Assembly (NCBI GenBank): GCA_948146395.1
Contig: OX411548.1
Location: 60,097,020 to 60,161,019, forward strand
DNA: 64,000 nucleotides
Origin: Fragum whitleyi
Taxonomy: Eukaryota > Mollusca > Bivalvia > Cardiida > Cardiidae
Reading direction: 5' to 3'
Part shown: one piece after another, positions 2,780 to 60,699 of the stretch
How the letters are laid out: each line of letters opens with the position of its first letter
How positions within the stretch are numbered: the first letter of the stretch is position 1
Made by a program: the position numbers and the translations under genes
Notes under the pieces: generated by a model
Database searches by the model: none
The model's input: the letters and a program-made list of their open reading frames with translations, nothing else
Told to the model about the DNA's origin: nothing

Positions 2780-4020
2780 TAACAGCAATTTTTTTCTCAA
2801 AATGTTGACCTTGACAGATGACCTTGACCTTTTAACATGACCTCGACCTTGATACCTACAAATGTATACCACTGAGATCTTTCATCATGCCAATTATGAG
2901 ACAGGGTATCTATAATATGTTTAAATAATCTGCACAATGAAAGTTTTTTGGTTATGTTATTCAGAAGTTTGACCTTGAAAGATGACATTGACCTCGTCAC
3001 ATGACCTTGACTTTTGAACATGCAGATGTCGATCATTGAGATGTATCATCATGCCCAGTATTAGCATTGTATCTTGAATAGGCTTGAAGATATTGGCAAT
3101 TTTAAGTTTTTTGGTTAAGTTTTTGAGTTATTTAACCTTGAGAGATGACCTTGACCTTGTCACATGACCTTGACTTTGGAACATGCAGATGTCGATCATT
3201 GAGATGTATCATCATGCCATGTATTAGCATTGTATCTTGAATAGGCTTGAAGATATTGGCAATTTTAAGTTTTTTGGTTAAGTTTTTGAGTTATTTGACA
3301 TTGAGAGATGACCTTGACCTTGTCACATGACCTTGACTTTGGTATCAGCAGATGCGTATCATTGAGATCTATCATCATTCCAAATATGAGCCTTGTATCT
3401 TGAATAGGCTTAAAGATTTAGGCTATGTTAAGTTTTTTGTTTAAGTGTTTGAGTTATTTGACCTTTGGAGATGACCTTGACCTTATCACATGACCTTGAC
3501 TTTGGTATCAGCAGATGCGTATCCTTGAGATCTATCATCATGCCAAATATGAGCCTTGTATCTTGAATAGGCTTGAAGATATCGGCAATGTTAAGTTTTT
3601 TTGTTAAGTTTTTGAGTTATTTGACCTTGAGAGATTACCTTGACCTTGTCACATGACCTTGACTTTGGTATTAGCAGATGCGTATCTTTGAGATCTATCA
3701 TCATGCCCAATATGAGCCTTGTATCTTGAATAGGCTTGAAGATTTAGGCTATGTTAAGTTTTTTGGTTAAGTTTTTGAGTTAATTGACCTTGGGAGATGA
3801 CCTTGACCTTATCACATGACCTTGACTTTGGTATCAGCAGATGTGTATCCTTGAGATCTATCATCATGCCAAATATGAGCCTTGTATCTTGAATAGGCTT
3901 GAAGATATTGGCAATGTTAAGTTTTTTTGGTTAAGTTTTGCAGACAGACAGACAGACGGACAGACAGACGGACAACGGTAAAACAATATGCCCCCGATCT
4001 TTCGATACGCGGGCATAAAA
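2746..4020 (+). mobile_element. Bounded repeat element with seven ~163-bp internal units
   Basis: The left end is 'aacaagatgtgtttgtgaaa', which includes the palindrome GTGTTTGTGAAACAC, followed by 'tgcccccgtaac'. The right end has a run of 'cagacagacggacagac' followed by a hairpin, 'tgccccc...gcgggca', and 'taaaa'. Between them 'ttgaccttgagagatgacc' recurs near 2811, 2971, 3134, 3297, 3459, 3622 and 3785. Each unit contains several TGACCTTGAC motifs and 'atctatcatcatgcc'. The layout (distinct ends, internal tandem units, 3' hairpin) suggests a non-autonomous mobile element. A Helitron-type relative is possible, but no convincing CTRR end was seen. No target duplication was found. Confidence 0.7.
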
Positions 4021-4899
4021 ATAAAGTAATGAAGTCCACCATTTAATACAATAATCTGCTATATTTAACACCATTAAATACAGGCAAGCAATTTTTCGTC
4101 TGAATCACTGTAATGTTTCAATTTTTTTAAAAAAAAAATCGGTGCAATATTTCAAGTATCAATGTATTTTTAACAATTACCCTAAAGTTTCGTTTTCTTG
4201 AGATGAACTTGTTTGGTAAAATAATGAAAATAAACCTTGACACTGTACCATCGTAAAGACTAAATCAAAATATATGAAATATCAATATTCTTTGCACCTG
4301 AACACCTATTAAAGCTGCTCTTGCACAGATTGAGAAAATGTAATTTTTGAAAATTTTCGTAAAATCAATCAGAAGTAAGGACCTTATCATGTTGAAGCCT
4401 TTAGATAAATAAGATTCAATCTGGTAATGCATGGAAAGAAAGACTGATATTCCTGAATTTAGCGAAATTCATTCTGAAAAAATAAAGCAACTACTAACGC
4501 CTAAAAAATAATTCTTCAATTTCGAGCAAACCATTTACGTGTGTGCATTTCGCATTATTGCCTTATTCAATCAAAGATTAAGGTTAAAGTATTTGACAGC
4601 TGAAAATTTCATATAAATACAAGCAAAAATGCAAGATTATTCACGGAAAGAAACGATTTTGTAATTAATAGACTGGAAATGCATAGACTGGATTCCTTAC
4701 TGATCTTGACACTTCGAACAAATAATTTACAAAATAGTTGAAATATGATGGTTTTACTGTCAATGACCTTGGGCCAGTCTTAATCATCTAAAAATACGCG
4801 CATTTCCGAATCTAAGATAAAGTTTTGTATTTTTCAATTAAAAAATGTGAAAGAGCAGCTTTAAGGTGAGATTTAAAAGATAGGTTTTATAATTTTTTC
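4021..4899. other. Unassigned AT-rich DNA
   Basis: No coding potential, array or known element end seen. Confidence 0.5.
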
Positions 4900-25134: not shown

Positions 25135-25690
25135 AAGATGTTTTATTTAAAGCCCAAAGTAAAATGCGAGTTGTTTTTTTCTGGCGCTTAGTTATTTCTT
25201 ACAATTTTCGTTTAATAGTCCTTCCCCAGATAGGACAACAGTAATTATACACGAACTAAAAAAAGTTTCATTTCAAAAGTAGGGTATACATATATTCATT
25301 TCAGCTAGACGATTTTACAGTTTATTTTCAGACAGTTTTAATCTATATTATCAGCCCATGTTTAGTGTTTGTACATAATCATATCTAAAATCTTTTGTGA
25401 GTCGGCGTTTTCTTTAGGGATGTTGTTGATACGCATATCAAGCCTAGAAGCTGTAATTTTATTTTATTTTTCCCAATAAGCATACACTTGATCTTACTTT
25501 GATTCACGAGAATGTTGTTGTTTGTGCACCAATCGAGAATACAATTTAAACTAAACTGAAGATTTGGTTGCATGTCTAATAAGTCAGTTCCAGAGGTGTA
25601 AAGTGTTGAAACATCAGAATAAAGATCCAAGTTAGAGTTCTTCATATAAAGGCAAAGATCATTATTTTATATAGATAAAGAATAGAAGCG
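25135..25690 (-). pseudogene. Non-LTR reverse transcriptase fragment
   Basis: Minus strand from the fold-back boundary downward. 'LLFFIYI' followed after an indel by 'NDLCLYMKNSNLDLYSD' is the RT palm segment before the catalytic YADD box. The box itself reads YSDV, so two of its four residues are changed. Then comes 'LDWCTNNNILVNQSKIKCML', the next conserved block, a frameshift near 25,450, 'RINNIPKENADSQKILD', and in another frame 'YNYCCPIWG' and 'ITKRQKKTTRILL' near 25,240-25,150. The order fits CR1/jockey-group LINEs. Frameshifts, stops and the lost catalytic residues make it dead. Its upstream end is cut by the 94-bp terminal repeat. Confidence 0.8.
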
Positions 25691-25779
25691 TGTGAAGTTG
25701 GCAGGACATTAGACATTAGACATTAGACATTCGGCCCAATGTCTAAAAGGGGAATTAGACATTCAAAAATGAATGTCTA
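25686..25779 (+). repeat. Left 94-bp terminal inverted repeat
   Basis: Identical to the reverse complement of 39,689-39,782. The first ~25 bp are unique to the ends. The rest already contains AGACATT heptamers and the palindromic 'agacattcaaaaatgaatgtct'-type motif (two halves: AGACATTCA and TGAATGTCT). Confidence 0.95.
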
Positions 25780-28700
25780 AATCCCCAAATTAGACATAAG
25801 ACATTCGATTAGACATTCGATTAAACCCTCTCTCGAATGTCTAAATGCCTCATTTAGACATTAGACATTCGTTTAGACATTCGACCGAATCCTCGTTTGA
25901 ATGTCTAAATGTCTCAATTAGACATTAGACATTCGTTTAGACATTCGACCGAATCGTCGTTTGAATGTCTAAATGTCTCAATTAGACATTAGACATTCGT
26001 TTAGACATTCGACCGAACCCCCTTTTGAATGTCTAAATGCCTGAATTAGACATTAGACATTCGTTAAGACATTCGACCGAATCCTCGTTTGAATGTCTAA
26101 ATGTCTCATTTAGACATTAGACATTCGTTTAGACATTCGACCGAATCGTCGTTTGAATGTCTAAATGTCTCAATTAGACATTAGACATTCGTTTAGACAT
26201 TCGACCGAATCATCGTTTGAATGTCTAAATGTCTCATTTAGACATTAGACATTCGTTTAGACATTCGACCAAATCCCCGTTTGAATGTCTAAATGTCTCA
26301 TTTAAACATTAGACATTCGTTTAGACATTCGACCGAATCCTCGTTTCAATGTCTAAATTTCTCAATTAGACATTAGACATTCGTTTAGACATTCGACCGA
26401 ACCCCCTTTTGAATGTCTAAATGCCTGAATTAGACATTAGACATTCGATTAGACATTCGATTAAACCCTCTCTCGAATGTCTAAATGCCTCATTTAGACA
26501 TTAGACATTCGTTTAGACATTCGACCGAATCCTCGTTTGAATGTGTAAATGTCTCAATTAGACATTAGACATTCGTTTAGACATTCGACCGAACCCCCTT
26601 TTGAATGTCTAAATGCCTGAATTAGACATAAGACATTCGTTTAGACATTCGACCGAATCCTCGTTTGAATGTCTAAATGTCTCATTTAGACATTAGACAT
26701 TCGTTTAGACATTCGACCGAATCCTCGTTTGAATGTCTAAATGTCTCATTTAGACATTAGACATTCGTTTAGACATTCGACCGAATCCTCGTTTGAATGT
26801 CTAAATGTCTCAATTAGACATTAGACATTCGTTAAGACATTCGACCGAACCCCCTTTTGAATGTCTAAATGCCTGAATTAGACATTAGACATTCGATGAG
26901 ACATTCGATTTAACCCTCTCTCGAATGTCTAAATGCGTCATTTAGACATTAGACATTCGTTTAGACATTCGACCGAATCCTCGTTTGAATGTCTAAATGT
27001 CTCAATTAGACATTAGACATTCGATTAGACATTCGACCAAACCCCCTTTTGAATGTCTAAATGCCTGAATTAGACATTAGACATTCGTTTAGACATTCGA
27101 TTAAACCCTCTCTCGAATGTCTAAATCCCTCATTTAGACATTAGACATTCGTTTAGACATTCGACCGAATCCTCGTTTGAATGTCTAAATGTCTCAATTA
27201 GACATTAGACATTCGTTTAGACATTCGACCGAATCCTCGTTTGAATGTCTAAATGTCTCAATTAGACATTAGACATTCGTTAAGACATTCGACCGAACCC
27301 TCTTTCGAATGTCTAAATGCCTGAATTAGACATTAGACATTCGTTTAGACATTCGACCGAATCCTCGTTTGAATGTCTAAATGTCTCATTTAGACATTAG
27401 ACATTCGTTAAGACATTCGACTGAATCCTCGTTTGAATGTCTAAATGTCTCAATTAGACATTAGACATTCGTGTAGACATTCGACCGAACCCCCTTTTGA
27501 ATGTCTAAATTCCTGAATTAGACATTAGACATTCGATTAGACATTCGATAAAACCCTCTTTCGAATGTCTAAATGCCTCATTTAGACATAAGACATTCGT
27601 TTAGACATTCGACCGAATCCTCGTTTGAATGTCTAAATGTCTCAATTAGACCTTTGCTTATTAGACATTCGTTTAGACATTCGACCGAACCCCCTTTTGA
27701 ATGTCTAAATGCCTTAATTAGACATTAGACATTCGTTTAGACATTCGATTAAACCCTCTCTCGAATGTCTAAATGCCTCATTTAGACATTAGACATTCGT
27801 TTAGACATTCGACCGAATCCTCGTTTGAATGTCTAAATGTCTCATTTAGACATTAGACATTCGTTTAGACGTTCGACCGAATCCTCGTTTGAATGTCTAA
27901 ATGTCTCAATTAAACATTAGACATTCGTTTAAACATTCGACCGAACCCTCTTTTGAATGTCTAAATGCCTGAATTAGACATTCGTTTAGACATTCGACCG
28001 AATCCTCGTTTGAATGTCTAAATGTCTCATTTAGACATTAGACATTCGTTTAGACATTCGACCGAATCCTCGTTTGAATGTCTAATGTCTCAATTAGACC
28101 TTTGCTTATTAGACATTCGTTTAGACATTCGACCGAATCCTCGTTTGAATGTCTAAATGTCTCATTTAGACATTAGACATTCGTTTAGACGTTCGACCGA
28201 ATCCTCGTTTGAATGTCTAAATGTCTCAATTAAACATTAGACATTCGTTTAAACATTCGACCGAACCCTCTTTTGAATGTCTAAATGCCTGAATTAGACA
28301 TTCGTTTAGACATTCGACCGAATCCTCGTTTGAATGTCTAAATGTCTCATTTAGACATTAGACATTCGTTTAGACATTCGACCGAATCCTCGTTTGAATG
28401 TCTAAATGTCTCAATTAGACCTTTGCTTATTAGACATTCGTTTAGACATTCGACCGAACCCCCTTTTGAATGTCTAAATGCCTGAATTAGACATTAGACA
28501 TTCGTTTAGACATTCGATTTAACCCTCTCTCGAGTGCCTAAATGCCTCATTTAGACATTAGACATTCGTTTAGACATTCGACCGAACCCCCTTTTGAATG
28601 TCTAAATGCCCGAATTAGACATTAGACATTCGTTTAGACATTCGACCGAATCCTCGTTTGAATGTCTTAATGTCTAATTTAGACATTAGACATTCGTTTA

Positions 28701-30625
28701 GACATTCGACCCAATCCTTGTTTGAATGTCTAAATGTCTCATTTAGACATTAGACATTCGTTTAGACATTCGACCGAATCCTCGTTTGAATGTCTAAATG
28801 TCTCAATTAGACATTAGACATTCGTTTAGACATTCGACCGAACCCCCTTTTGAATGTCTAAATGCCTGAATTAGACATTAGACATTCGTTTAGACATTCG
28901 ACCGAATCCTCGTTTGAATGTCTAAATGTCTCATTTAGACATTAGACATTCGTTTAGACATTCAACCGAATCCTCGTTTGAATGTCTAAATGTCTCAATT
29001 AATCATTAGACATTCGTGTAGACATTCGACTGAACCCCCATTTGAATGTCTAAATGCCTGAATTAGACATTAGACATTCGATTAGACATTCGATTAAACC
29101 CTCTCTCGAATGTCTTAATGCCTAATTTAGACATTAGACATTCGTTTAGACATTCGACCGAATCCTCGTTTGAATGTCTAAATGTCTCAATTAGACATTA
29201 GACATTCGTTAAGACATTTGACCGAACCCCCTTTTGAATGTCTAAATGGCTGAATTAGACATTAGACATTCGATTAAACATTCGATTAAACCATCTTTTG
29301 AATGTCTAAATGCCTCATTTAGACAGTAGACATTCGTTTAGACAATCGACCGAATCCTCGTTTGAATGTCTAAATGTCTCATTTAGACATTAGACATTCG
29401 TTTCAGCATTCGACCGAATCCTCGTTTGAATGTCTAAATGTCTCAATTAGACATTAGACATTCGTTAAGACATTTGACCGAACCCCCTTTTGAATGTCTA
29501 AATGCCTGACTTAGACATTAGACATTCGATTAGACATTCGATCGAAAACATGCTTGAATGTCTAATTGACCAAATAAGACATTAGACATTCGATTAGACA
29601 TTCGATCGATTCCTGTTTTGAATGTCTAAATGCCTAAATTAGACATTAGGCATTCGATTAGACATTCGACTAAACCCTCTCTCGAATGTCTAAATGCCTG
29701 AATTAGACATTAGACATTCGTTTAGACATTCGACCGAACCCCCTTTTGAATGTCTAAATGCCTGAATTAGACATTAGACATTCGATTAGACATTCGATCG
29801 ATCCCTGATTTGAATGTCTAAATGCCTAAATTAGACATTAGGCATTCGATTAGACATTCGACTAAACCCTCTCTCGAATGTCTAAATGCCTGAATTAGAC
29901 ATTAGACATTCATTTAGACATTCGACCGAACCCTTTTTGGAATGTCTCATTGACCGAATTAGACATTAGACATTCGTTTAGACATTCGAACGATCCCTGA
30001 TTTGAATGTCTAAATGCCTGACTTAGACATTAGACATTCGATTAGACATTCGATTGAACCCCCTTTTGAATGTCTAAATTCCCGAATTAGACATTAGACA
30101 TTCGATTAGACATTTGATCGAACACGTGCTTGAATGTCTAAATGACCAAATTAGACATTAGACATTCAATTAGAAATTCGATCGATCCCTGTTTTGAATG
30201 TCTAAATGACTGAATTAGACATTAGACATTCGTTTAGACATTCGACCGAATCCTCGATTGAATGTCTAAAAGTCTCAATTAGACATTAGACATTCGATTA
30301 GACATTCGAACGCACATGTGCTTGAATATCCAAATGGCCAAATTAGACATTAGAGATTCAAGTAGACATTTGATTAGACCCTCTCTCGAATGTCTAAATG
30401 CCTTAATAAGACATTAGACATTCGTTTAGACATTCGATCGAACACGTGCTTGAATGTATAAATGACCAAATTAGACATTAGACATTCGATAAGACATTCG
30501 AACGATCCCTGTTTTGAATGTCTAAATGCCTTATTTAGACATTAGACATTCGTTTAGACATTCGACCGAACCCTTTTTCGAATGTCTAAATACTTCAATT
30601 AGACATTAGACATTCGTTTATGACG
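25780..30625 (+). repeat. Left-arm array of 64-bp units (~76 copies)
   Basis: The period is 64 bp: 'gaccgaatcctcg' at 25,883 is followed by 'gaccgaatcgtcg' at 25,947. Each unit holds three AGACATT and two AATGTCT heptamers, so TTAGACATTC and GAATGTCTAA form a 10-bp stem in every unit. Three main variants alternate: 'gaccgaatcctcgtttg...atgtctc', 'gaccgaacccccttttg...atgcctga' and 'gattaaaccctctctcg...atgcctca'. The last ~1.2 kb (from 29,530) is more diverged, with 'gatcgatccctgttttg' and 'gatcgaacacgtgcttg' variants. The marker 'cctttgcttatt' appears at 27,651, 28,099 and 28,420, showing segmental duplication in multiples of 64 bp (7 and 5 units). Confidence 0.95.
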
Positions 30626-31948
30626 TAACCATTTTTAGCACGTTCAAAGACTATTTGAGGGTGCAGTCATAACAAATCAAATAAAATGGGGAAAACTAAA
30701 TGCATGTTTGTGAAAAAACGAAGAATCGTTTTGACATTTTATTTTCTATATACAGAAATCAATCAAAAACTTTTTGTGGGGTCTGTCAAAAGAATTAAGC
30801 GAATTTTTAGTCGTACATTGTTTGTCTTTTATTAACTTTCGAAGTTAGGGTACTAAACTTTGTTCCCGATTTGTAGAAATTCAGTACGGTAAAAAAAATC
30901 ATCGGGACAATTTTTCAAAAAATAAGTTTAAAACTATTTTTCCGGCCGCAAAAAATTGAAAATTTAACTTTAAATCAATTTCGTGTATCTATCTTTAAAT
31001 ATAACAATGTTCTAATTACACGCTAATGTTCACAATTCATTCAACCTCATTTTGGTATATTCCATTGAATTGAATCACATTAATTACGGTCATAGTATGC
31101 GATTTAGAACGCGTAAGGTCATGTGTAAAAAAACGCATGAAATCGTCAATTCAACGATGCCATGGTAACGTTAATTCTAAATTGAACGTTAGAAAAAATA
31201 CATCGTTAAGATCGCGCTAACACGACGTTTAAATAGATACCAATATATATGCATTCATCTCTATAAACGCTATTGTCCTCTTCCACCTTAATCAGGAGTG
31301 TCAGAGGTTCTGCCAGGCCGTTATTGATAGTGCCGGCTCTCATACTCGTTATTGAGCGAAATCCAATTGAAAGAACACCCTTTTTGGTCAAATTCCATTT
31401 TTTGAATTTACAGGAAATCAGACCAATTCTATGGTCTCCCTAATGGGTCTACATTTAAAGTCTTCTTATCATTATAAAGCTTTATTTTTCTTCTTAAAAT
31501 TTGATAAACTGATAACAATCGACCATTTTTCAACATTCTTATAATCAAATTTCATTTTTTCGTGAAATTATAGTATAAAAAAAAAAGTGTTGTTGCTTAG
31601 CAAACTTTGAGTAGTGGGTTGTATTTTAAAATCATTGCTGAGGCCAGAAAACATCATTTTCGGTTTCAAATAATAGTTGCGTTGTTTCTGCGTTGTTTCT
31701 TTATATCATTAAAACAAAAGCAACAGACTTTGTTTTTAAACCCTTACTACGAGGGATGTTCCGAAAGATTAAGCGGAATGCTTGAAATGAAGGTAAACTT
31801 AGGTTCATTTGTCGAGTTTTAGCAAAGTATTCAAAAAGTAGGCGTAATAAATTACAGCTTAATCAAAGCAATGACGTAATAGGTACAAGCATTCAGACAC
31901 ACAATGATAGGTTAATACCGCCGGAGCAGCGGATGGCCTTTTCCGAAA

Positions 31949-32092
31949 TTTTTATCACCAATACTTTTCTCCTTATTTTTGAATGATCTTGTAGATTTTA
32001 TTTCTCATGGATTTGATGGTCTGTCTGATTTGACAGATGATGTACACTTGCTTTTTGATGATGACGTTGAAAATAATGTTCATGTTAATTAG
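31949..32092 (+). pseudogene. LINE reverse-transcriptase palm fragment
   Basis: An open stretch reads 'LSPILFSLFLNDLVDFISHG', the conserved RT block preceding the catalytic YADD motif in jockey-type LINEs. The frame ends at TAG 32,090-32,092 before any YADD box. The 3' side changes abruptly into a tRNA-like sequence, consistent with interruption. It has the same strand and family style as the piece at 32,930, which would be the downstream thumb region. Confidence 0.75.
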
Positions 32093-32135
32093 TTGTCTTT
32101 ATGATACTAAAAAACATACACTTGTTTATCGCAGT

Positions 32136-32212
32136 TGCGTAGTCGAGTGGATAAGGACCACAGAATATTGAGCAAGCGGACCAAGTTCGATCCTGCATCG
32201 CGACATAAAAGT
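32136..32212 (+). ncRNA. tRNA-like SINE head or tRNA pseudogene
   Basis: A-box-like 'tgcgtagtcgagtggata' and B-box-like 'aagttcgatcc' are spaced as in a tRNA, with possible acceptor complementarity 'tcgca...tgcatcgcga'. Folding is imperfect. It may be a SINE head, because another tRNA-like sequence lies inverted at 32,696. Confidence 0.45.
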
Positions 32213-32695
32213 GATATTTTTTCCAATTTATAATTAAATATCATTCCTTTGAATTATGTTAAATGTTGTGCCGATTTTGAAAAATGCTTCAATTGTCTGC
32301 ACTATTTTTGTATTTTTTAGATTGAAAAGATCTATGCTATATTAACTTTAACGTGGAGATGAATATAAAGCCGAGCTTACAAATACGCTGAAAGTATGAT
32401 TTGACAAATGGACGATTCAATATTTTTAAAGACCGCACTCTTGTAAATTGAATGCAATTGCCAAAACGATTTCAGACCAACGGCAATTGTTTCATTATTC
32501 GATGTTTTATCGCATAGAATTGAAATCGCTTTCTCCGAAATGTAGTATCCCGTATATTTAATCATACATGTATAATACATGTATAGAAATTTATAGGAAA
32601 TGCATAGAATAGAAATTTATCAGCGTGTATTTGCTGGTCTAAAAAATTAATTTTTCTTGAAACAACAATAAAAATCATTGCTGGTGCTGACAGGA

Positions 32696-32775
32696 TAGGA
32701 ACCGGGAGCGTTTAAGTAATAATCAGATAATAGTCTGGCATGCGTATCCACTGAGCCATCGCAGTCATTTACATA
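32696..32775 (-). ncRNA. tRNA-like sequence, minus strand
   Basis: On the minus strand, 'atggctcagtggatacgcat' provides an A-box-like element and 'cggttcctatcc' a degenerate B box. The start 'actgcgatggctcagtggat' is similar to 'gcagttgcgtagtcgagtgg' at 32,136, giving an inverted pair about 560 bp apart. Confidence 0.45.
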
Positions 32776-32929
32776 CGTCACGGATTTTATTTCTATTATA
32801 TCAGATTATTACAGGTAGTTTACATATTCGACAAGTAACCTGCACTACCTTGAGAATATATCGGTACAAAAGTGTCAATGATAGCATTATCGCGCGCAAT
32901 TTATACTTCGATGTAACTTTCACACACAA

Positions 32930-33215
32930 TACTTTTATTGTTAATCATAAAACTCACCTTTTAGAACAAGGTAGAAAAGCTATGTTTAGTGTTCTAAAGA
33001 AATTAAAACGCTTACATTCGAGATGCAGTTGCAAATGTTTGAAAGTATGGTACTACCGATTCTGCTATATGGTGCAGAAGTTTATGGTTATGAAAATTCT
33101 TAAATTATTGAATCATTATTTTTGACGTTTTACAAAAATGACAATGTGCTTTAAAAAAACAACACCAAGTGCTGTTTTCACAGGGTATAACGTGCCACGC
33201 CGACACCAGCAGGTT
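32930..33215 (+). pseudogene. LINE RT thumb-region fragment
   Basis: Starts in frame with 'HLLEQGRKAMFSVLKKLKRL' (about 32,955-33,015) and continues after a frameshift with 'LQMFESMVLPILLYGAEVYG' (about 33,020-33,085), then 'YEN' and a stop. Both are characteristic of the region after YADD in jockey-like LINE polymerases. Traces such as 'TPSAVF' follow near 33,170 before the match fades. A 91-codon ORF covers the first part. With the 31,949 fragment, this shows that a LINE once lay in the element interior. Confidence 0.8.
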
Positions 33216-33597
33216 CGTGGATACCTGATCGATTTTTCCAATTCGGAACTAACGGTGGACAAAGTTTTTGACTTATTTGTAAACAAAAATAATCGTTTTC
33301 ATTTCAATTTTAGTTAGGTTTGTCATTAATTCTTTGTCAAACAACCTGACTATTCTCTTTGTTTGTAATTGGCTAAGAGCATTTATGTATCCTCTACACG
33401 CATACCAAATTTCTCGGCGAAAGATCAACATAAAGCGAAGATATTAGTACTTTTATGGGCCTGGGTAGCGGAAAATATGATAACAAGACACCCCCTGAAT
33501 TTTTAGCGATTGGAAATCGACACCAGAGTTAAAAGAATTTCTTATAACTCGACACCTACCTTAAAATCATCTATATTTCTCCCTAAACGATCGTGTA

Positions 33598-33861
33598 CTA
33601 ACCGTTAACGGAGCATTTTCTGTACATTTCAGCTTGTAAAGGCTCGATGATTAATTTTGGAGCATATTCAAACCAATCCCGTAAATTATAGCACTTATTT
33701 TTACCGTTCTGCCCATAATACATTTGAACAAGTTGTCCAATTCCGTGTGAATATTTGTCTTCATAAATGCGATCTTTAAAACGTTCATAGGACGTTGAAT
33801 CTCGTGAAATCGTATTTCCCTTTCTTTGCCAATATCGGTTTTGTAGCATCTGTTTTGTTAC
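33598..33861 (-). other. Unrecognised 83-codon ORF in fold-back interior
   Basis: An open frame of 87 codons (83 from the first ATG) with an unusually protein-like composition: many Tyr, Trp, Cys, Lys and Arg, and no low complexity. Notable segments are 'RYWQRKGNTISRDSTSYERF' and 'CYNLRDWFEYAPKLI'. I recognise no family. A possible acceptor AG precedes the ATG, but without a pyrimidine tract. It could be an exon of a protein carried by the element or a decayed fragment. It is the best candidate for element-encoded coding sequence in the interior. Confidence 0.3.
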
Positions 33862-34234
33862 TGATCATGTATATTCATTTGTGTCTAAAAAGGCGTCTGA
33901 ATGACGAAGAGTTGTTTGCTACTCCGCGATACGTATGAAGCGACCACGGGCGATTGAGTTACGTTAGATCTTTAATTTATAATAATGATACGGATAAACA
34001 AGGATAAATACGACACACAGCTATTAATAAATACTTACATTAACCGATATGATTCCATACACATATCGTCATTCTTTCTACAGCCTAAGTATATCAATAC
34101 ACATTACAGGAACTCACATTTGAAATTTGTCATAAAAAACGATTACAGACTCATCACTCAAGAACATAGTTATTCAGACTTTTTCTGTAAGTAAGCACAT
34201 GTATACTGGAAAGATCACAAAAGTATTGTTTAAT

Positions 34235-34425
34235 TGAGATCGAAACGATGGTTGATTATCGAAGACTTATGTGGGATAGCAGCTGATGACTGGGAAAGGA
34301 TGAAATGATAGTAATGGTGTGGGAAACATCATGAGTCGATATTTAGGTGTTCCAGTCGCCGCGATATAACTTCAAGATTTTTAAAAGTAGCGGTAAACCC
34401 CAAACATACAAACACACAAAAACGA
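34235..34425 (+). mobile_element. SINE, 5'-truncated, inside fold-back interior
   Basis: Body blocks 'ttgattatcgaagacttatg', 'tgggatagcagctg' and 'gggaaaggatgaaatgatag' lead into the 3' domain 'ccgccgcgatataactt'. More diverged than the copies at 57 and 60 kb. The tRNA-like head is missing. Confidence 0.75.
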
Positions 34426-35469
34426 GGATGGAAAGTGATAATCGTGCTGTTTGAATTCAAAGAAGTATAATAACAACGTCATACAATGAGATGAATATCT
34501 ATGTATATGGATTTCACACTATAAAGCGAAACATTATTCTTTTTTCTCCAATGGATAATATAAGACGATAAGTGAATGCTTTAGAATTGATTGGTTTGGA
34601 TAATCTCTTTCGCGCATGATACCATGGTATGGGATATCACCAACGGTATGATGGTACCAGATTAAATGTCTCATACCACTTGATCTTCAAAAATGGATTC
34701 TAATTGGTAAGCGCACTGGTTTGTGGTGAAATTACCTAATGATAGTCACCCTAGAAATCTTGTTAACACACTGGAAAGCGTCAAAAATCTGTTTCTCATT
34801 CGATTTTAGCTTATTTTTTCAAAAAATAAGATTAAACTTACAAACACAATATTTATTACGAATATTCAAGTCATTACAATAAATGGAATAAATTTTAAAA
34901 TATAAGCCGAAAGAAGGCGAACGAGGTATAGTTGCTATGACCCAAAGGGCCATTTGAGAGAAATATACTGTTCCGCACTTTACCAAAAACCTGACAAAGA
35001 CTGTATTTTTTTATACCCATCCATATTTTCTAGCTCAGTTAGTAACGTGTAGCCCTGTCGCGCACAACTTTCATATAACCATTACCATCTGACACGCATC
35101 ATTTTTCTCTCACCAATAAATGAACGACAATAATCGAAAAGCTATTGAAAATGCTAGGTGAATTCATTGCATAACAGAAAAAAAACATATCATACATATG
35201 CGTAGGCTAATTTAAGTTTGAAGAATGTAGGAAAGGAGTTAACGGCATAAAAATTATTTTGTATTTAGAAGAATTATTATTTCGTTTCCATAGAAATAGC
35301 GAAGTCCATTAAAGTCTTGTTTTTTCATTGAAAAAAGAAATCATAACATGTTCGAAAGAGTGTCACCCAAGGGTTTTGCATCACCCTTATAATTTCAATT
35401 ATTTTAGTGAAATTGTGCTTTTGTCTAGCTATATTAATTTTGAATGCAGTTGTTGGTCCAATCTCTTTA

Positions 35470-35670
35470 GTGGTTTTGTAGCGTTTCTGAATGTTGTGTG
35501 TGAGTGTTGGGAATGAATGATTGGAGATGTGAGCGAGTGATTTTGAGTGGTTTAGCTCGCGCTTGGTGTCAATTTCACAAAGTAATTAACTGCATTTATT
35601 AATTAAAGAAGAATTAAAGAGAACTATGTCACGCGACTTTTGCTGTATTTACGCGAAAAGGGACAATGAA
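35470..35670 (+). repeat. Dispersed repeat X, partial copy
   Basis: 'gaatgaatgattggagatgt', 'ggtgtcaatttcacaaagta', 'attaactgca' and 'gcgaaaagggac' match, with divergence, the right half of the copy at 44,380-44,845. Confidence 0.55.
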
Positions 35671-36047
35671 AAAGCATTCAAATAAAAATTAAAATTGCTA
35701 GGTATAGAAAAATAATTCACATAAGCTAATAATTTCTGACACTCTTACAAAAAACGTTAAGACGTTAATCTTTCCGAAGCGAGTCGTACAAAGACATTAG
35801 TCAAAACTGATTCAGGTAAGCAAAGCGCTTGCAAACGTTAGCGAAAACTTTCTTGGTTTCCTATTATGAACTTATGCTTGCTATGGGCGCTTGAAATAAT
35901 CGGCTATCAGCGACGCAAGGTGACTAGCTTAGCAAACGGATAGCTTTACCAATGTTACTGATCTTTTTCGGAAAATCTCGCGATTTTTGATTTGTTCGGA
36001 TATTTAACCATCTGAAGTGCTAAATCTATGAATATTTTTTTAATTCA

Positions 36048-36274
36048 TTATATAATTCTAAAAGTGTTTTCTTGGATTAAGCTTTGAGTCGAGTCACATT
36101 GGTCGCCTAGCAACCGGGTCATTTTTGGACCCCGCTTGCGTTGCGGTGCGCTCAAGATAGACTGCTCGCTATTAAATTGTTCGCGGCGAGCGCTTTCGTA
36201 TCCTGAATGCAAGGCAACTTTTGATTGTCCTTTGATGAAATCTAATCTATAATGACGCATTATAACCAACATGT
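36048..36274 (-). other. Short GC-richer segment at array boundary
   Basis: A 100-codon minus ORF (36,048-36,350) starts within the 64-bp array and continues through this segment. The non-array part has no recognised domain. The sequence includes an RFX/X-box-like site, GTCGCCTAGCAAC, at 36,102-36,114. An ORF that borrows its start from an array is unlikely to be a gene. Confidence 0.3.
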
Positions 36275-39200
36275 TAATTGAGACATTTAGACATTCAAAC
36301 GAGGATTCGGTCGAATGTCTAAACGAATGTATAATGTCTAAATGAGACATTTAGACATTCAAACGAGGATTCGGTCGAATGTCTAAACGAATGTCTAATG
36401 TCTTATTCAGGCATTTAGACATTCAAAAGAGGGTTCGGTCGAATGTCTAAACGAATGTCTAATGTCTAATTGAGACATTTAGACATTCAAACGAGGATTC
36501 GGTCGAATGTCTAAACGAATGTCTAATGTCTAATTGAGACATTTAGACATTCAAACGAGGATTCGGTCGAATGTCTAAACGAATGTCTAATGTCTAAATG
36601 AGGCATTTAGACATTCGAGAGAGGGTTTAATCGAATGTCTAAACGAATGTCTAATGTCTAATTCAGGCATTTAGACATTCAAAAGGGGGTTCGGTCGAAT
36701 GTCTAAATGAATGTCTAATGTCTAATTGAGACATTTAGACATTCAAACGAGGATTCGGTCGAATGTCTAAACGAATGTCTAATGTCTAAATGAGGCATTT
36801 AGACATTCGAGAGAGGGTTTAATCGAATGTCTAATCGAATGTCTAATGTCTAATTCAGGCATTTAGACATTCAAAAGGGGGTTCGGTCGAATGTCTAAAC
36901 GAATGTCTAATGTCTAAATGAGACATTTAGACATTCAAACGAGGATTCGGTCGAATGTCTAAACGAATGTCTAATGTCTAAATGAGACATTTAGACATTC
37001 AAACGAGGATTCGGTCGAATGTCTAAACGAATGTCTAATGTCTAATTCAGGCATTTAGACATTCAAAAGGGGGTTCGGTCGAATGTCTAAACGAATGTCT
37101 AATGTCTAATTCAGACATTTACACATTCAAACGAGGATTCGGTCGAATGTCTAAACGAATGTCTAATGAATAAATGAGGCATTTAGACATTCGAGAGAGG
37201 GTTTAATCGAATGTCTAATGTCTAAAAAAGGATTCGGTCGAATGTCTAAACGAATGTCTAATGTCTAATTGAGACATTTAGACATTCAAACGAGGATTCG
37301 GTCGAATGTCTAAACGAATGTCTAATGTCTAAATGAGACATTTAGACATTCAAACGAGGATTCGTTTGAATGTCTAAACGAATGTCTAAATCAGGCATTT
37401 AGACATTCAAAAGGGGGGTTCGGTCGAATGTCTAAACGAATGTCTAATGTCTAATTGAGACATTCAGACATTCAAACGAAGATTCGGTCGAATGTCTAAT
37501 GTCTAAATGAGGCATTTAGACATTCGAGAGAGAGTTTAATCGAATGTCTAATCGAATGTCTAATGTCTAATTCAGGCATTTAGACAATCAAAAGGGGGTT
37601 CGGTCGAATGTCTAAACGAATGTCTAATGTCTAAATGAGGCATTTAGACATTCAAGAGAGGGTTTAATCGAATGTCTAATCGAATGTCTAATGTCTAATT
37701 CAGGCATTTAGACATTCAAAAGGGGGGGGGTTGGTCGAATGTCTAAACGAATGTCTAATGTCTAATTGAGACATTTAGACATTCAAACGAAGATTCGGTC
37801 GAATGTCTGAACGAATGTCTAATGTCTAAATGAGGCATTTAGACATTCGAGAGAGGGTTTAATCGAATGTCTAATCGAATGTCTAATGTCTAATTCAGGC
37901 ATTTAGACATTCAAAAAGGGGGTTCGGTCGAATGTCTAAACGAATGTCTAATGTCTAATTCAGGCATTTAGACATTCAAAAGGGGGTTCGGTCGAATGTC
38001 TAAACAAATGTCTAAGGTCTAATTGAGACATTTACACATTCAAACGAGGATTCGGTCGAATGTCTAAACGAATGTCTAATGTATAAATAAGGCATTTAGA
38101 CATTCAAACGAGGATTCGGTCGAATGTCTAAACGAATGTCAAATGTCTATTTCAGGCATTTAGACATTCAAAAGGGGGTTCGGTCGAATGTCTAAACGAA
38201 TGTCTAATGTCTAATTGAGACATTTAGACATTCAAACGAGGATTCGGTCGAATGTCTAAACGAATGTCTTATGTCTAAATGAGGCATTTAGACATTCGAG
38301 AGAGGGTTTAATCGAATGTCTAATCGAATGTCTAATGTCTAATTCAGGCATTTAGACATTCAAAAGGGGAGTTTGGTCGAATGTCTAAACGAATGTCTAA
38401 TGTCTAATTGAGACATTTAGACATTCAAACGAAGATTCGGTCGAATGTCTAAACGAATGTCGTATGTCTAAATGAGGCATTTAGACATTCGAGAGAGGGT
38501 CTAATCGAATGTCTTATCAAATGTCTAATGTCTAATTCAGGCATTTAGACCTTTAAAAGGGGGTTCGGTCGAATGTCTAAACGAATGTCTAATGTCTAAT
38601 TGAGACATTTAGACATTGAAAAGGGGGTTCTGTCGAATGTCTAAACGAATGTCTAATGTCTAATTCAGGCATTTAGACCTTCAAAAGGGGGTTCGGTCGA
38701 ATGTCTAAACGAATGTCTAATGTCTAATTGAGACATTTAGACATTCAAACGAGGATTCGGTCGAATGTCTAAACGAATGTCTAATGTCTAAATCAGGCAT
38801 TTAGACATTGGAGAGAAGGTTTAATCGAATGTCTAATCGAATGTCTAATGTCTAATTCAGGCATTTAGACCTTCAAAAGGGTTCGGTCGAATGTCTAAAC
38901 GAATGTCTAATGTCTAATTGAGACATTTAGACATTCAAACTAGGATTCGGTCGAATGTCTAAACGAATGTCTAATGTCTAAATGAGACATTTAGACATTC
39001 AAACGAGGATTCGGTCGAATGTCTAAACGAATGTCTAATGTCTAAATAAGGCATTTAGACATTCAAACGAGGATTCGGTCGAATGTCTAAACGAATGTCT
39101 AATGTCTAATTCAGGCATTTAGACATTCAAAAGTGGGTTCGGTCGAATGTCTAAACGAATGTCTAATGTCTAATTGAGACATTAAGACATTCAAACGAGG

Positions 39201-39688
39201 TTTCGGTCGAATGTCTAAACGAATGTCTTATGTCTAAATGAGGCATTTAGACATTCGAGAGAGGGTTTAATCGAATGTCTAATCGAATGTCTAATGTCTA
39301 TGTCAGGCATTTAGACATTCAAAAGGGGGTTCGGTCGAATGTCTAAACAAATGTCTAATGTCTAATTGAGACATTTAGACATTCAAACGAGGATTCGGTC
39401 GAATGTCTAAACGAATGTCTAATGTCTAAATGAGGCATTTAGACATTGGAGAGAGGGTTTAATCGAAAGTCTAATCGAATGTCTAATGTCTAATTCAGGC
39501 ATTTAGACATTCAAAAGCGGTTTCGGTCGAATGTCTAAACGAATGTCTAATGTCTAATTGAGACATTTAGACATTCAAACGAGGATTCGGTCGAATGTCT
39601 AAACGAATGTCTAAATGAGGCATTTAGACATTCAAGAGAGGGTTTGATCGAATGTCTAATCGAATGTCTAATGTCTAATTTGGGCATA
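36275..39688 (-). repeat. Right-arm array of 64-bp units (~53 copies)
   Basis: Same unit family as the left arm in reverse complement: 'gaggattcggtcgaatgtct', 'gggggttcggtcgaatgtct' and 'gagagggtttaatcgaatgt' variants alternate, often in the order ABC. No copy of the left-arm marker (here 'aataagcaaagg') was seen, so the right arm does not mirror the recent left-arm duplications. Some units are shortened (37,201-37,230; 39,600-39,620). Confidence 0.95.
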
Positions 39689-39782
39689 TAGACATTCATT
39701 TTTGAATGTCTAATTCCCCTTTTAGACATTGGGCCGAATGTCTAATGTCTAATGTCTAATGTCCTGCCAACTTCACACGCTT
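39689..39782 (-). repeat. Right 94-bp terminal inverted repeat
   Basis: Exact reverse complement of 25,686-25,779; ends 'ccaacttcacacgctt'. Beyond it the sequence is unrelated to the left flank. Confidence 0.95.
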
Positions 39783-39844
39783 AAAATTACCAGGCCTGCT
39801 TTGTTACCGAGGTGATGGAAAATTTCAAAACCGTTAATTGTAGT

Positions 39845-40470
39845 CGAGCGCAAAAATGTCAGCGCTTCATTCATTCTTTCCAAACACTCACTCAAATCGA
39901 CCAAAAACTGCTCCAAAATCTTTAGAAAACATTTCGAAATCGGCTAAGACGATTAGTATCTAATTAGAATTGATCTAATTGTTCTACGATTTTATTGACT
40001 GGTGTTGATTTAAAATGTCTGGATTGGTCCATGAAGACACACAAACAGAAAAGTACGTATATTGTATTAAAGGAAGGTAACAGATATCGATTATTTCGTT
40101 CATTTTGAACAAAATTAGCAGTATTGGATTACTTCCCCTTAATTTCACTCAAACTTGCTCCACACACTTATTCAATCTCAATCAAAAATCGTTCCAAATT
40201 CATTAGTATTGTCAATTTCACGATGTTCTTAACCCTTTGCTGTTTAATCCCTGCTTTTTATGTGCCTGTGTTTTTATGATTGAGAAAACATTGTGAAAAA
40301 AAGAAGAAATTGCTTCTGACAAGCAATTTCTTCCTTTTCCACACTATTTTCTACCCTACTGAATGGTTATTTTTCAAATGAAATCCACTTTAAATTTTCG
40401 TCTGCAAAACCTTTGAATTTGGACAGGTCCAAAATTTTGTAAAACAGGAAAGGGTTAACTGTACCATTAA
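39845..40470 (-). repeat. Dispersed repeat X, split by a MITE
   Basis: Inverted relative to 44,380-44,845. Shared blocks are 'cattcattctttccaaacac', 'aaaatctttagaaaacattt', 'cggctaagacgatt', 'ggattggtccatgaagacac', 'aaaggaaggtaaca' and 'cattttgaacaaaattagc'. The repeat continues 'gtcaatttcacgatgttc', is interrupted by the 230-bp MITE at 40,229-40,458, and resumes 'TTAActgta'. Similarity to the 44-kb copy is perhaps 70% by eye. Confidence 0.75.
40229..40458 (+). mobile_element. piggyBac-like TTAA MITE, copy 3
   Basis: TTAA at 40,229-40,232 and 40,455-40,458; ends 'ttaaccctttgctgtttaat' and 'aaacaggaaagggttaa'. The central hairpin has ~22-bp arms with two changes. It matches copy 1 at most positions and has the same orientation. 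Its site is informative: the interrupted repeat is found uninterrupted at 60,945-60,975, with a single TTAA at 60,953-60,956. Confidence 0.9.
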
Positions 40471-57252: not shown

Positions 57253-57550
57253 CTGTTTTGAAAATTGATTGATTAAATGGAGTTTAAAGCCGCTTTCAAT
57301 ATTTTTTCAGTTATATCGCGGCGGCTGGAGCACCTAACAGTGTTTTCCTGGTGTTTCTCTTACCAGTACAACCATAATATTCTTTCCTTTTTTCCAGCTG
57401 CTATCTCACATAGGTTTACGATTATCAACCCATTGGTGAGAGACAAATAGTCGGAAAGAATGGGTGCCGCCGTCGGGGATCGAACCCGGGACCTCTAGAA
57501 TGACAGGCCGACGCGCTACCAACTGCGCTATGACGGCGGCTCTGTTTTGA
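57253..57550 (-). mobile_element. Full-length tRNA-derived SINE with target duplication
   Basis: Flanked by perfect direct repeats CTGTTTTGA (57,253-57,261 and 57,542-57,550). On the minus strand the tRNA-like head (57,540-57,466) has acceptor arms GCCGCCG/CGGCGGC, A box TAGCGCAGTTGG and B box GGTTCGATCCC. The anticodon arm does not pair well, so it is a SINE head rather than a working tRNA. The body follows, then the 3' domain 'gccgccgcgatataactgaa' and the tail 'ttaatcaatc'. Translation of the head gives the familiar spurious peptide 'AVIAQLVARRPVILEVPGSI'. Intact promoter boxes suggest a fairly recent insertion. Confidence 0.93.
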
Positions 57551-60396: not shown

Positions 60397-60699
60397 AAAA
60401 CTTTATAGCCGCCGTCATAGCGCAGTTGGTAGCGCGACGGACGGTCATTCTAGAGGTCCCGGGTTCGATCCCCGACGGCGGCACTCATTCTTTCCGACAA
60501 TTTGTCTCTCACCAATGGGTTGATAATCGTAGACCTATGTGAGATAGTAGCTGGAGGCTAGGAAAGGATGTAATGGTTGTACTGGTGAGAGAAATACCAG
60601 GAATCCATCGTTAGGTGCTCCTGCCGCCGCGATATAGCTGAAATAATGTTGAAAGCGGCGTTAAACTCCATTCAATCAATCAATCAATCAAAGCTTTAT
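60397..60699 (+). mobile_element. Full-length tRNA-derived SINE, plus strand
   Basis: The tRNA-like head at 60,408-60,482 has GCCGCCG/CGGCGGC arms, A box TAGCGCAGTTGG and B box GGTTCGATCCC. The body contains 'tgataatcgtagacctatgt', then 'gccgccgcgatatagctgaa', 'gttgaaagcggcgttaaact' and a (CAAT)n tail to about 60,690. Flanks AAAACTTTAT (60,397-60,406) and AAAGCTTTAT (60,690-60,699) are a probable target duplication with one change. It is about 90% similar by eye to the 57-kb copy. The two large overlapping ORFs here are SINE translations, not genes. Confidence 0.93.

Follow-up and report, generated by a model that had tools for sequence, protein, structure and literature searches.

Introduction

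In the FB elements of Drosophila, the inverted arms are composed of short tandem units. The element reported here, likened to them by description and not base by base, lies at 25686-39782 of a 64-kb stretch of the genome of the bivalve Fragum whitleyi (contig OX411548.1; the whole stretch is called the window, and bare coordinates refer to it), as an arm-core-arm structure of approximately 14 kb. According to the excerpts of the published accounts on which we draw, here and below, a stretch enclosed by foldback elements can be mobilized as a whole, as in the Ising element (PMC6431247). In Galileo, several transposase binding sites within the tandem repeats were located by footprint and gel shift, and its authors suggest that many sites may give specificity or offset the length of the element (PMC3688188). 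Tetris, from Drosophila virilis, was assigned to Mutator partly on the size of its target duplication, and has parts of its ends in common with an element that has been linked to inversions (PMC4079207); for Mutator, this duplication ranges from 8 to 11 bp (PMC6446971).

The element of the window is a real, mobile and young foldback-type element, non-autonomous as far as seen, and belongs to a dispersed family whose copies can be compared side by side.

Results and discussion

Structure of the window copy

The two ends of the window copy are exact reverse complements over 94 bases, the match stopping there going outward. Inside them, Tandem Repeats Finder detected two arrays with a period of 64 bp, at 25770-30620 (75.7 copies) and at 36271-39698 (53.4 copies, on the opposite strand and complementary to the left array). 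The perfect inverted ends and opposite arrays around a 5.65-kb core, described in an earlier note made from this sequence, are thereby confirmed. The left terminus starts with AAGCGTGTGAAGTTGGCAGG, followed by nearly four GACATTA heptamers in tandem. One common form of the 64-bp unit is TTAGACATTAGACATTCGTTTAGACATTCGACCGAATCCTCGTTTGAATGTCTAAATGTCTCAA, in which the heptamer AGACATT is dense in both orientations: counted on either strand, this motif is present 312 times in the left arm and 223 times in the right (535 in all), as against two occurrences in the core and 11 in the remaining window. Several unit types exist in the left arm, partly ordered as a three-unit C-A-B succession, and those at its inner end are common to the same-side arm of other copies. 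The DNA folding predicted for three unit types taken singly (z of -4.96, -4.91 and -4.93) and for the 94-bp end (z of -3.88) was equalled by 0 of 200 shuffles in each case; with regard to the snap-back of single strands, this prediction covers these short pieces only.

Paired ends and target duplications across the genome

A 30-base part of the terminus was found at 100 places of the host assembly (1.22 Gb, 38 contigs; 53 forward and 47 reverse matches, with at most three mismatches), and at none when the reversed pattern was used as a control, which removes the earlier concern that the terminus might occur only here. Sixty-two of these termini form 31 convergent pairs, assigned by hand, with a spacing of 0.28 to 24.7 kb; the other 38 are unpaired, and two facing termini 72 kb apart were left out of the pair count. 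With all flanks read, 15 of the 31 pairs display an exact 9-bp target duplication and four more a one-mismatch duplication, the chance of an exact 9-bp match being approximately 8e-6 per pair. No exact in-register 9-mer match exists between termini of different copies among the 100 termini. One unoccupied site is available for comparison: the repeat into which copy C4 was inserted is dispersed, and one of its paralogues (88-90% alike), located by coincidence within the core of the family itself, runs through the insertion site with a single, imperfect target copy and a 2-base gap there.

We regard the paired ends at many loci, the 9-bp duplications and the unoccupied paralogous site as established. 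The earlier proposal of an FB-type mobile element is supported by the paired inverted ends and target duplications at other loci, and its suggestion that the structure moves as a unit holds for the family, on the strength of these duplications, and stays a suggestion for the window copy. It could be argued that no transposon is involved, and that the structure is a misassembly, or else an inverted duplication of local origin or a satellite of palindromic form. Local duplication can produce inverted satellites, and the window copy, taken alone, lacks a target duplication. Such an origin is nevertheless highly improbable in view of the 31 paired loci, 15 of them with their own exact 9-bp duplications, of the unoccupied paralogue and of a core shared at 98-99% on other contigs. 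The paired inverted copies with duplications elsewhere likewise argue against a one-off misassembly, as judged from the assembly alone.

Further members were met outside the pairs. A search with a shorter 20-mer yielded eight termini beyond the 100, and the one that was opened (C13:19296810) is another short arrayed copy. For three termini without an array (L105-L107), no partner end and no frame longer than 121 amino acids (aa) was found in the 4.5-6.1 kb read. A miniature member of approximately 0.28 kb (L065, G000:C13:13603740-13604290), bounded by the exact 9-bp duplication GAATCAATA, is near a minimal form. Copy C2d (G000:C2:24.44 Mb; L041, L042, L108, L109) is bordered on each side by the same flank of approximately 66 bp in inverted orientation; beyond it, on the right, stands part of another terminus, GTGTGTGAAGTTGG, so that the end may be extended or nested.

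Recent spread and composition of the core

Of 14 copies tested, eight hold the initial 2.7 kb of the core whole and three in part, the remaining three giving nothing at the cut-off. Among the eight, divergence is only 0.15-1.78%, and the closest pair (C7b and C2c, 0.15%) lies on different contigs with different target duplications. On this comparison of sequences, the family spread recently, and we count this spread among the established points.

The core, which the earlier note had called unique, is in fact repeated: 601 bp of it occur at at least 16 places at 98-100% identity, each within 8 kb of a family terminus. Three further places at 95-97%, split by an insert, and one at 85% stand in or beside other family copies. 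The same 601 bp occur at at least 20 places at 74-86%, near none of the 100 termini (the best 40 of 929 candidates were scored, so that all these counts are lower bounds). Four of these 20 diverged matches were opened; they share mainly a piece of approximately 630-700 bp, at core-A positions 40-715; other parts of the core are matched over short, scattered tracts, and arms are absent from all four. This part of the core is therefore a dispersed host repeat. At the scale of the family, core part A (approx. 6 kb), part B (4.2 kb) and an extra 3.9 kb in the largest copy, C11b, appear in varying combinations, and the core gap is almost nil in C7a, C10 and C3 and under 1 kb in C8.

The core is a non-coding mosaic including host repeats. 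In the window core, no stop-to-stop frame exceeds 144 aa and no Pfam domain lies above the cut-off in six frames; frames longer than 144 aa are likewise absent from eight cores, and frames longer than 114 aa from the parts of C11b and C2c that were read. Neither part B of C2b (three forward frames throughout, reverse frames limited to the first 1.8 kb) nor the extra part of C11b (six frames) gave a Pfam domain above the cut-off, the six-frame scans having been run with stops read as X. A coding core was accordingly rejected, since neither the Pfam scans nor the stop-to-stop frames gave anything above the cut-off. Sub-threshold matches to AGA2 (window core) and Atrophin-1 (extra part of C11b) were taken as chance. 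Two peptides taken by eye for putative retrotransposon remnants (one in the left flank, at 25385-25666 on the minus strand, and one in core part B) had no Pfam match at E <= 1.

Dynamics of the arms

Arm length differs between copies and between the two arms of one copy, the eight A-side arms measured ranging from 1.6 to 6.2 kb. Indeed, the A-side arms of C7b and C2c are 6.2 and 3.8 kb long, and share exact blocks of up to 498 bp whose positions have changed. When the arms are written as strings of unit types, the outer start is common to most copies and the middle is variable; the inner end is identical in all nine copies (of 12) that keep the A side. The arms therefore behave as satellites with fixed edges, and the difference in array length and order between copies with nearly identical cores is a further point that we regard as established.

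The perfect identity of the two 94-bp ends, to which the earlier note attached special importance, appears ordinary within the family. The numbers of mismatches between the two ends of one copy, over 94 bp, are 0, 0, 1, 4, 2, 1, 1, 2, 2, 4, 35 and 1 in 12 copies, so that near-identity (0-4 mismatches) is the rule in 11 of them, the 35 mismatches of the remaining copy being due to a shift by one heptamer. No special constraint or correction at the ends is needed, as the two ends of young copies are about as alike as their cores (0.15-1.78% apart).

Several details bear on exchange between the ends. At position 4, the A-side ends carry C in 10 of 10 copies, and the far ends of 10 copies carry T in five, C in four and A in one. 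A 7-bp gap at one place is present in six of 10 far ends and in none of 10 A-side ends; the window copy and C11, to which it is closely related, combine this gap with a C at position 4. The ends of these two copies fit, without proving it, a short tract corrected on the model of the opposite end, the hint in the window copy amounting to one base, at position 4. A longer tract is seen in C2b, whose arms are 95.8% alike over 1.9 kb, as against 87.8-91.5% in seven other copies compared, and whose far end matches the A-side sequence across all 420 bp aligned. From this likeness, it seems probable that one arm can receive sequence from the other, or from another copy.

Which transposase?

The reading that we hold to be probable is that of a non-autonomous foldback-type DNA transposon, moved in trans most likely by a transposase of the Mutator-like elements (MULE). 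The AAGYGTGTGAAGTTGGCAGG ends and the heptamer-rich inverted arms would be the signals for transposition. The enzyme, probably of MULE type and provided in trans, would recognize the end of approximately 20 bp and the heptamers, and would cut at the ends; whole arm-core-arm units are inserted with 9-bp duplications, and hence at staggered cuts. By analogy with Galileo, the 535 heptamers of the window copy are putative transposase binding sites, and the core may be host DNA captured between two arms. P elements generate 8-bp target duplications, and the 9-bp duplication found here falls outside the 7-8 bp of the P superfamily and within the 8-11 bp of Mutator. Together with the foldback ends, it points to a transposase of the Mutator/Phantom type, as in the excerpted account of Tm1 (PMC3169594).

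Alternatively, the same element could be moved by a transposase outside Mutator, either of the P superfamily, as for Galileo, or undescribed. Foldback structures arose in several superfamilies, Galileo, with its repetitive ends and its chimeric copies bounded by unequal targets, is a member of the P superfamily (PMC3573991), and no transposase of any kind was found with these ends in our scans. The 9-bp duplication of 15 of the 31 pairs, however, differs from the 7-bp targets of Galileo and lies in the Mutator range (PMC6446971). We hold a non-Mutator transposase to be unlikely. A THAP-type P transposase domain was looked for in the scanned interiors only, and none was detected there.

MULE domains are present in the host genome, with 39 matches, some of them in long open frames. 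The family terminus is absent from the eight MULE loci of approximately 3.3 kb that were examined, and the MULE family search also matched three of 14 control genomes, all prokaryotes. Two equal-score MULE matches (L110 and L111, at G000:C1:81222605-81222886 and G000:C4:42187045-42187326), each in an open frame of 1061 aa, suggest that a Mutator-type element was recently active in this genome, with no family terminus nearby.

Several observations weigh against the reading that we hold to be probable. The transposase was not found in the interiors scanned between these ends, and the distance from a MULE match to the closest of the 100 termini is never below 155 kb, in a search which could miss ends diverged past its limits; the superfamily is accordingly unproven, and we claim likeness to MULE rather than membership. 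Twelve of the 31 pairs, including the window copy, display neither an exact nor a one-mismatch duplication. Among them, C9b shares seven bases at an offset, and C7a resembles, by eye, a duplication minus one base; in the remaining ten, no duplication is visible. At the window copy itself, the two flanking 9-mers differ at six of nine bases, so that this copy may or may not have moved as a unit. Finally, the whole comparison draws on a single genome assembly.

Origin of the window copy's flanks

Recombination between copies probably joined the two flanks now bordering the window copy, the duplication being lost thereby. Both junctions fall exactly at the terminus, which fits recombination between two copies, as for the chimeric copies of Galileo (PMC3573991). 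It is also possible, if rather unlikely, that the window copy is intact and not a recombinant, having been inserted without a duplication or having lost it through a small change in the flank. In favour of this possibility, no exact complementary 9-mer of the type expected in a reciprocal product is carried by any of the 100 termini, the nearest being one-mismatch sequences at shifted positions; a deletion between two copies, however, would leave no reciprocal product. The exact junctions would be unexpected under random loss of flank, and about ten of the 31 pairs are in the same state, as are 12 chimeric copies of Galileo in the excerpted account. Recombination between copies is therefore the origin that we retain as probable.

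The right flank yielded no unoccupied site, owing to the very high-copy dispersed repeat of approximately 375 bp (39859-40233) that stands beside the element. The copies listed for this repeat are 81-84% alike, with the best 40 of 11975 candidates scored, and the first 76 bp of the flank are uncovered by the matches listed.

A bolder interpretation, in which we place little confidence, would treat the satellite arms as very large docking arrays for the transposase, carrying whatever DNA intervenes (here approx. 6-12 kb, host repeats included). Such arms would grow, shrink and copy onto each other far faster than bases mutate, copies without duplications, that of the window among them, would mark the breakpoints of chromosome rearrangements, and the transposase might belong to no described foldback group.

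Other features of the window

The features of the window copy are collected in table 1. Outside it, two more tandem arrays lie at 13-1187 and 2805-3939, with periods of approximately 156 and 163 bp and a consensus unlike the 64-bp unit. Two tRNA-like matches (Rfam tRNA) at 57465-57537 (minus strand, 38.8 bits) and 60411-60483 (plus strand, 34.4 bits) have neighbouring frames sharing a peptide stretch, and seem to represent a single tRNA-headed dispersed repeat present twice. The collection viral_contigs gave no exact match to a 30-base part of the 64-bp unit.

Table 1. Features of the window copy and of its immediate flanks (positions in the window).
Feature	Position	Strand	Description
Left flanking 9-mer	25677..25685		AAAGAATAG; no match on the right side
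Left arm	25686..30620	+	terminus and array, approx. 75 units of 64 bp
Left terminus	25686..25779	+	94 bp; perfect inverted match to right terminus
Dispersed repeat within core	30618..31293	+	mapped from core-A positions 40-715; copies at 74-86% without terminus
Core	30621..36270		5,650 bp between arrays; repeated at 98-100% in other family copies
Paralogue of repeat hit by copy C4	33940..34625	+	mapped from core-A 3464-4149; gives the unoccupied-site comparison
Right arm	36271..39782	-	array, approx. 53 units of 64 bp, opposite orientation, and terminus
Right terminus	39689..39782	-	94 bp; perfect complement of left terminus
Right flanking 9-mer	39783..39791		AAAATTACC; differs from left 9-mer at 6/9 bases

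Comparison with known systems

As expected of foldback elements, the terminal inverted repeats of the family are long and built from short tandem units, and paired ends with target duplications recur at several loci. Helitrons and Helentrons are not known to have either target duplications or long terminal inverted repeats, whereas both 9-bp duplications and long inverted arms are found here. Oyster Helentrons with tandem repeats resemble the present family as mobile elements carrying satellite-like arrays, but their arrays are central and accompanied by subterminal inverted repeats, instead of forming long inverted arms (PMC11136912).

Among foldback elements, Tetris is similar in having tandem repeats within its terminal inverted repeats, target duplications of 8-10 bp and, in the excerpted account, no transposase-coding copy (PMC4079207). 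Its unit of approximately 220 bp differs from the 64 bp found here, where arms comprise dozens of units, the two being compared by description. Tm1, a Mutator/Foldback element of root-knot nematodes, shares more features with the family (PMC3169594): duplications mostly of 9 bp (8-10 bp in 45 of 53 elements), composite ends in which a short tandem motif varies in count, a difference between the two ends in their outermost bases, non-coding members and a member without duplications. However, the motif of Tm1 is 13-15 bp long, its elements or amplicons measure 0.9-2.6 kb, and it has a known member with a Phantom-like transposase, none having been found in the present family (PMC3169594). Galileo, from Drosophila and of the P superfamily, has similarly long and internally repetitive ends with a dynamic arm length (PMC3573991, PMC3688188), and its chimeric copies, bounded by unequal target sequences, recall the window copy (PMC3573991). 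It differs by its 7-bp targets, its P-type transposase and its ends of up to approximately 1.26 kb, as against A-side arms of 1.6-6.2 kb here.

No prior account of this family was found in searches of the literature on foldback and Mutator elements of bivalves, clams and molluscs. Without a transposase, it is a variation on a known theme: a new family within the known foldback type, with unusually long arms, several times the lengths given for Galileo, and clear arm dynamics. As this family is young and has dozens of ends, it allows arm length and arm likeness to be compared directly with the presence or loss of target duplications. Tests thereby become possible of the reasons for which long repetitive ends evolve, of the way in which transposons give rise to satellites, and of whether such elements drive rearrangements in this lineage.

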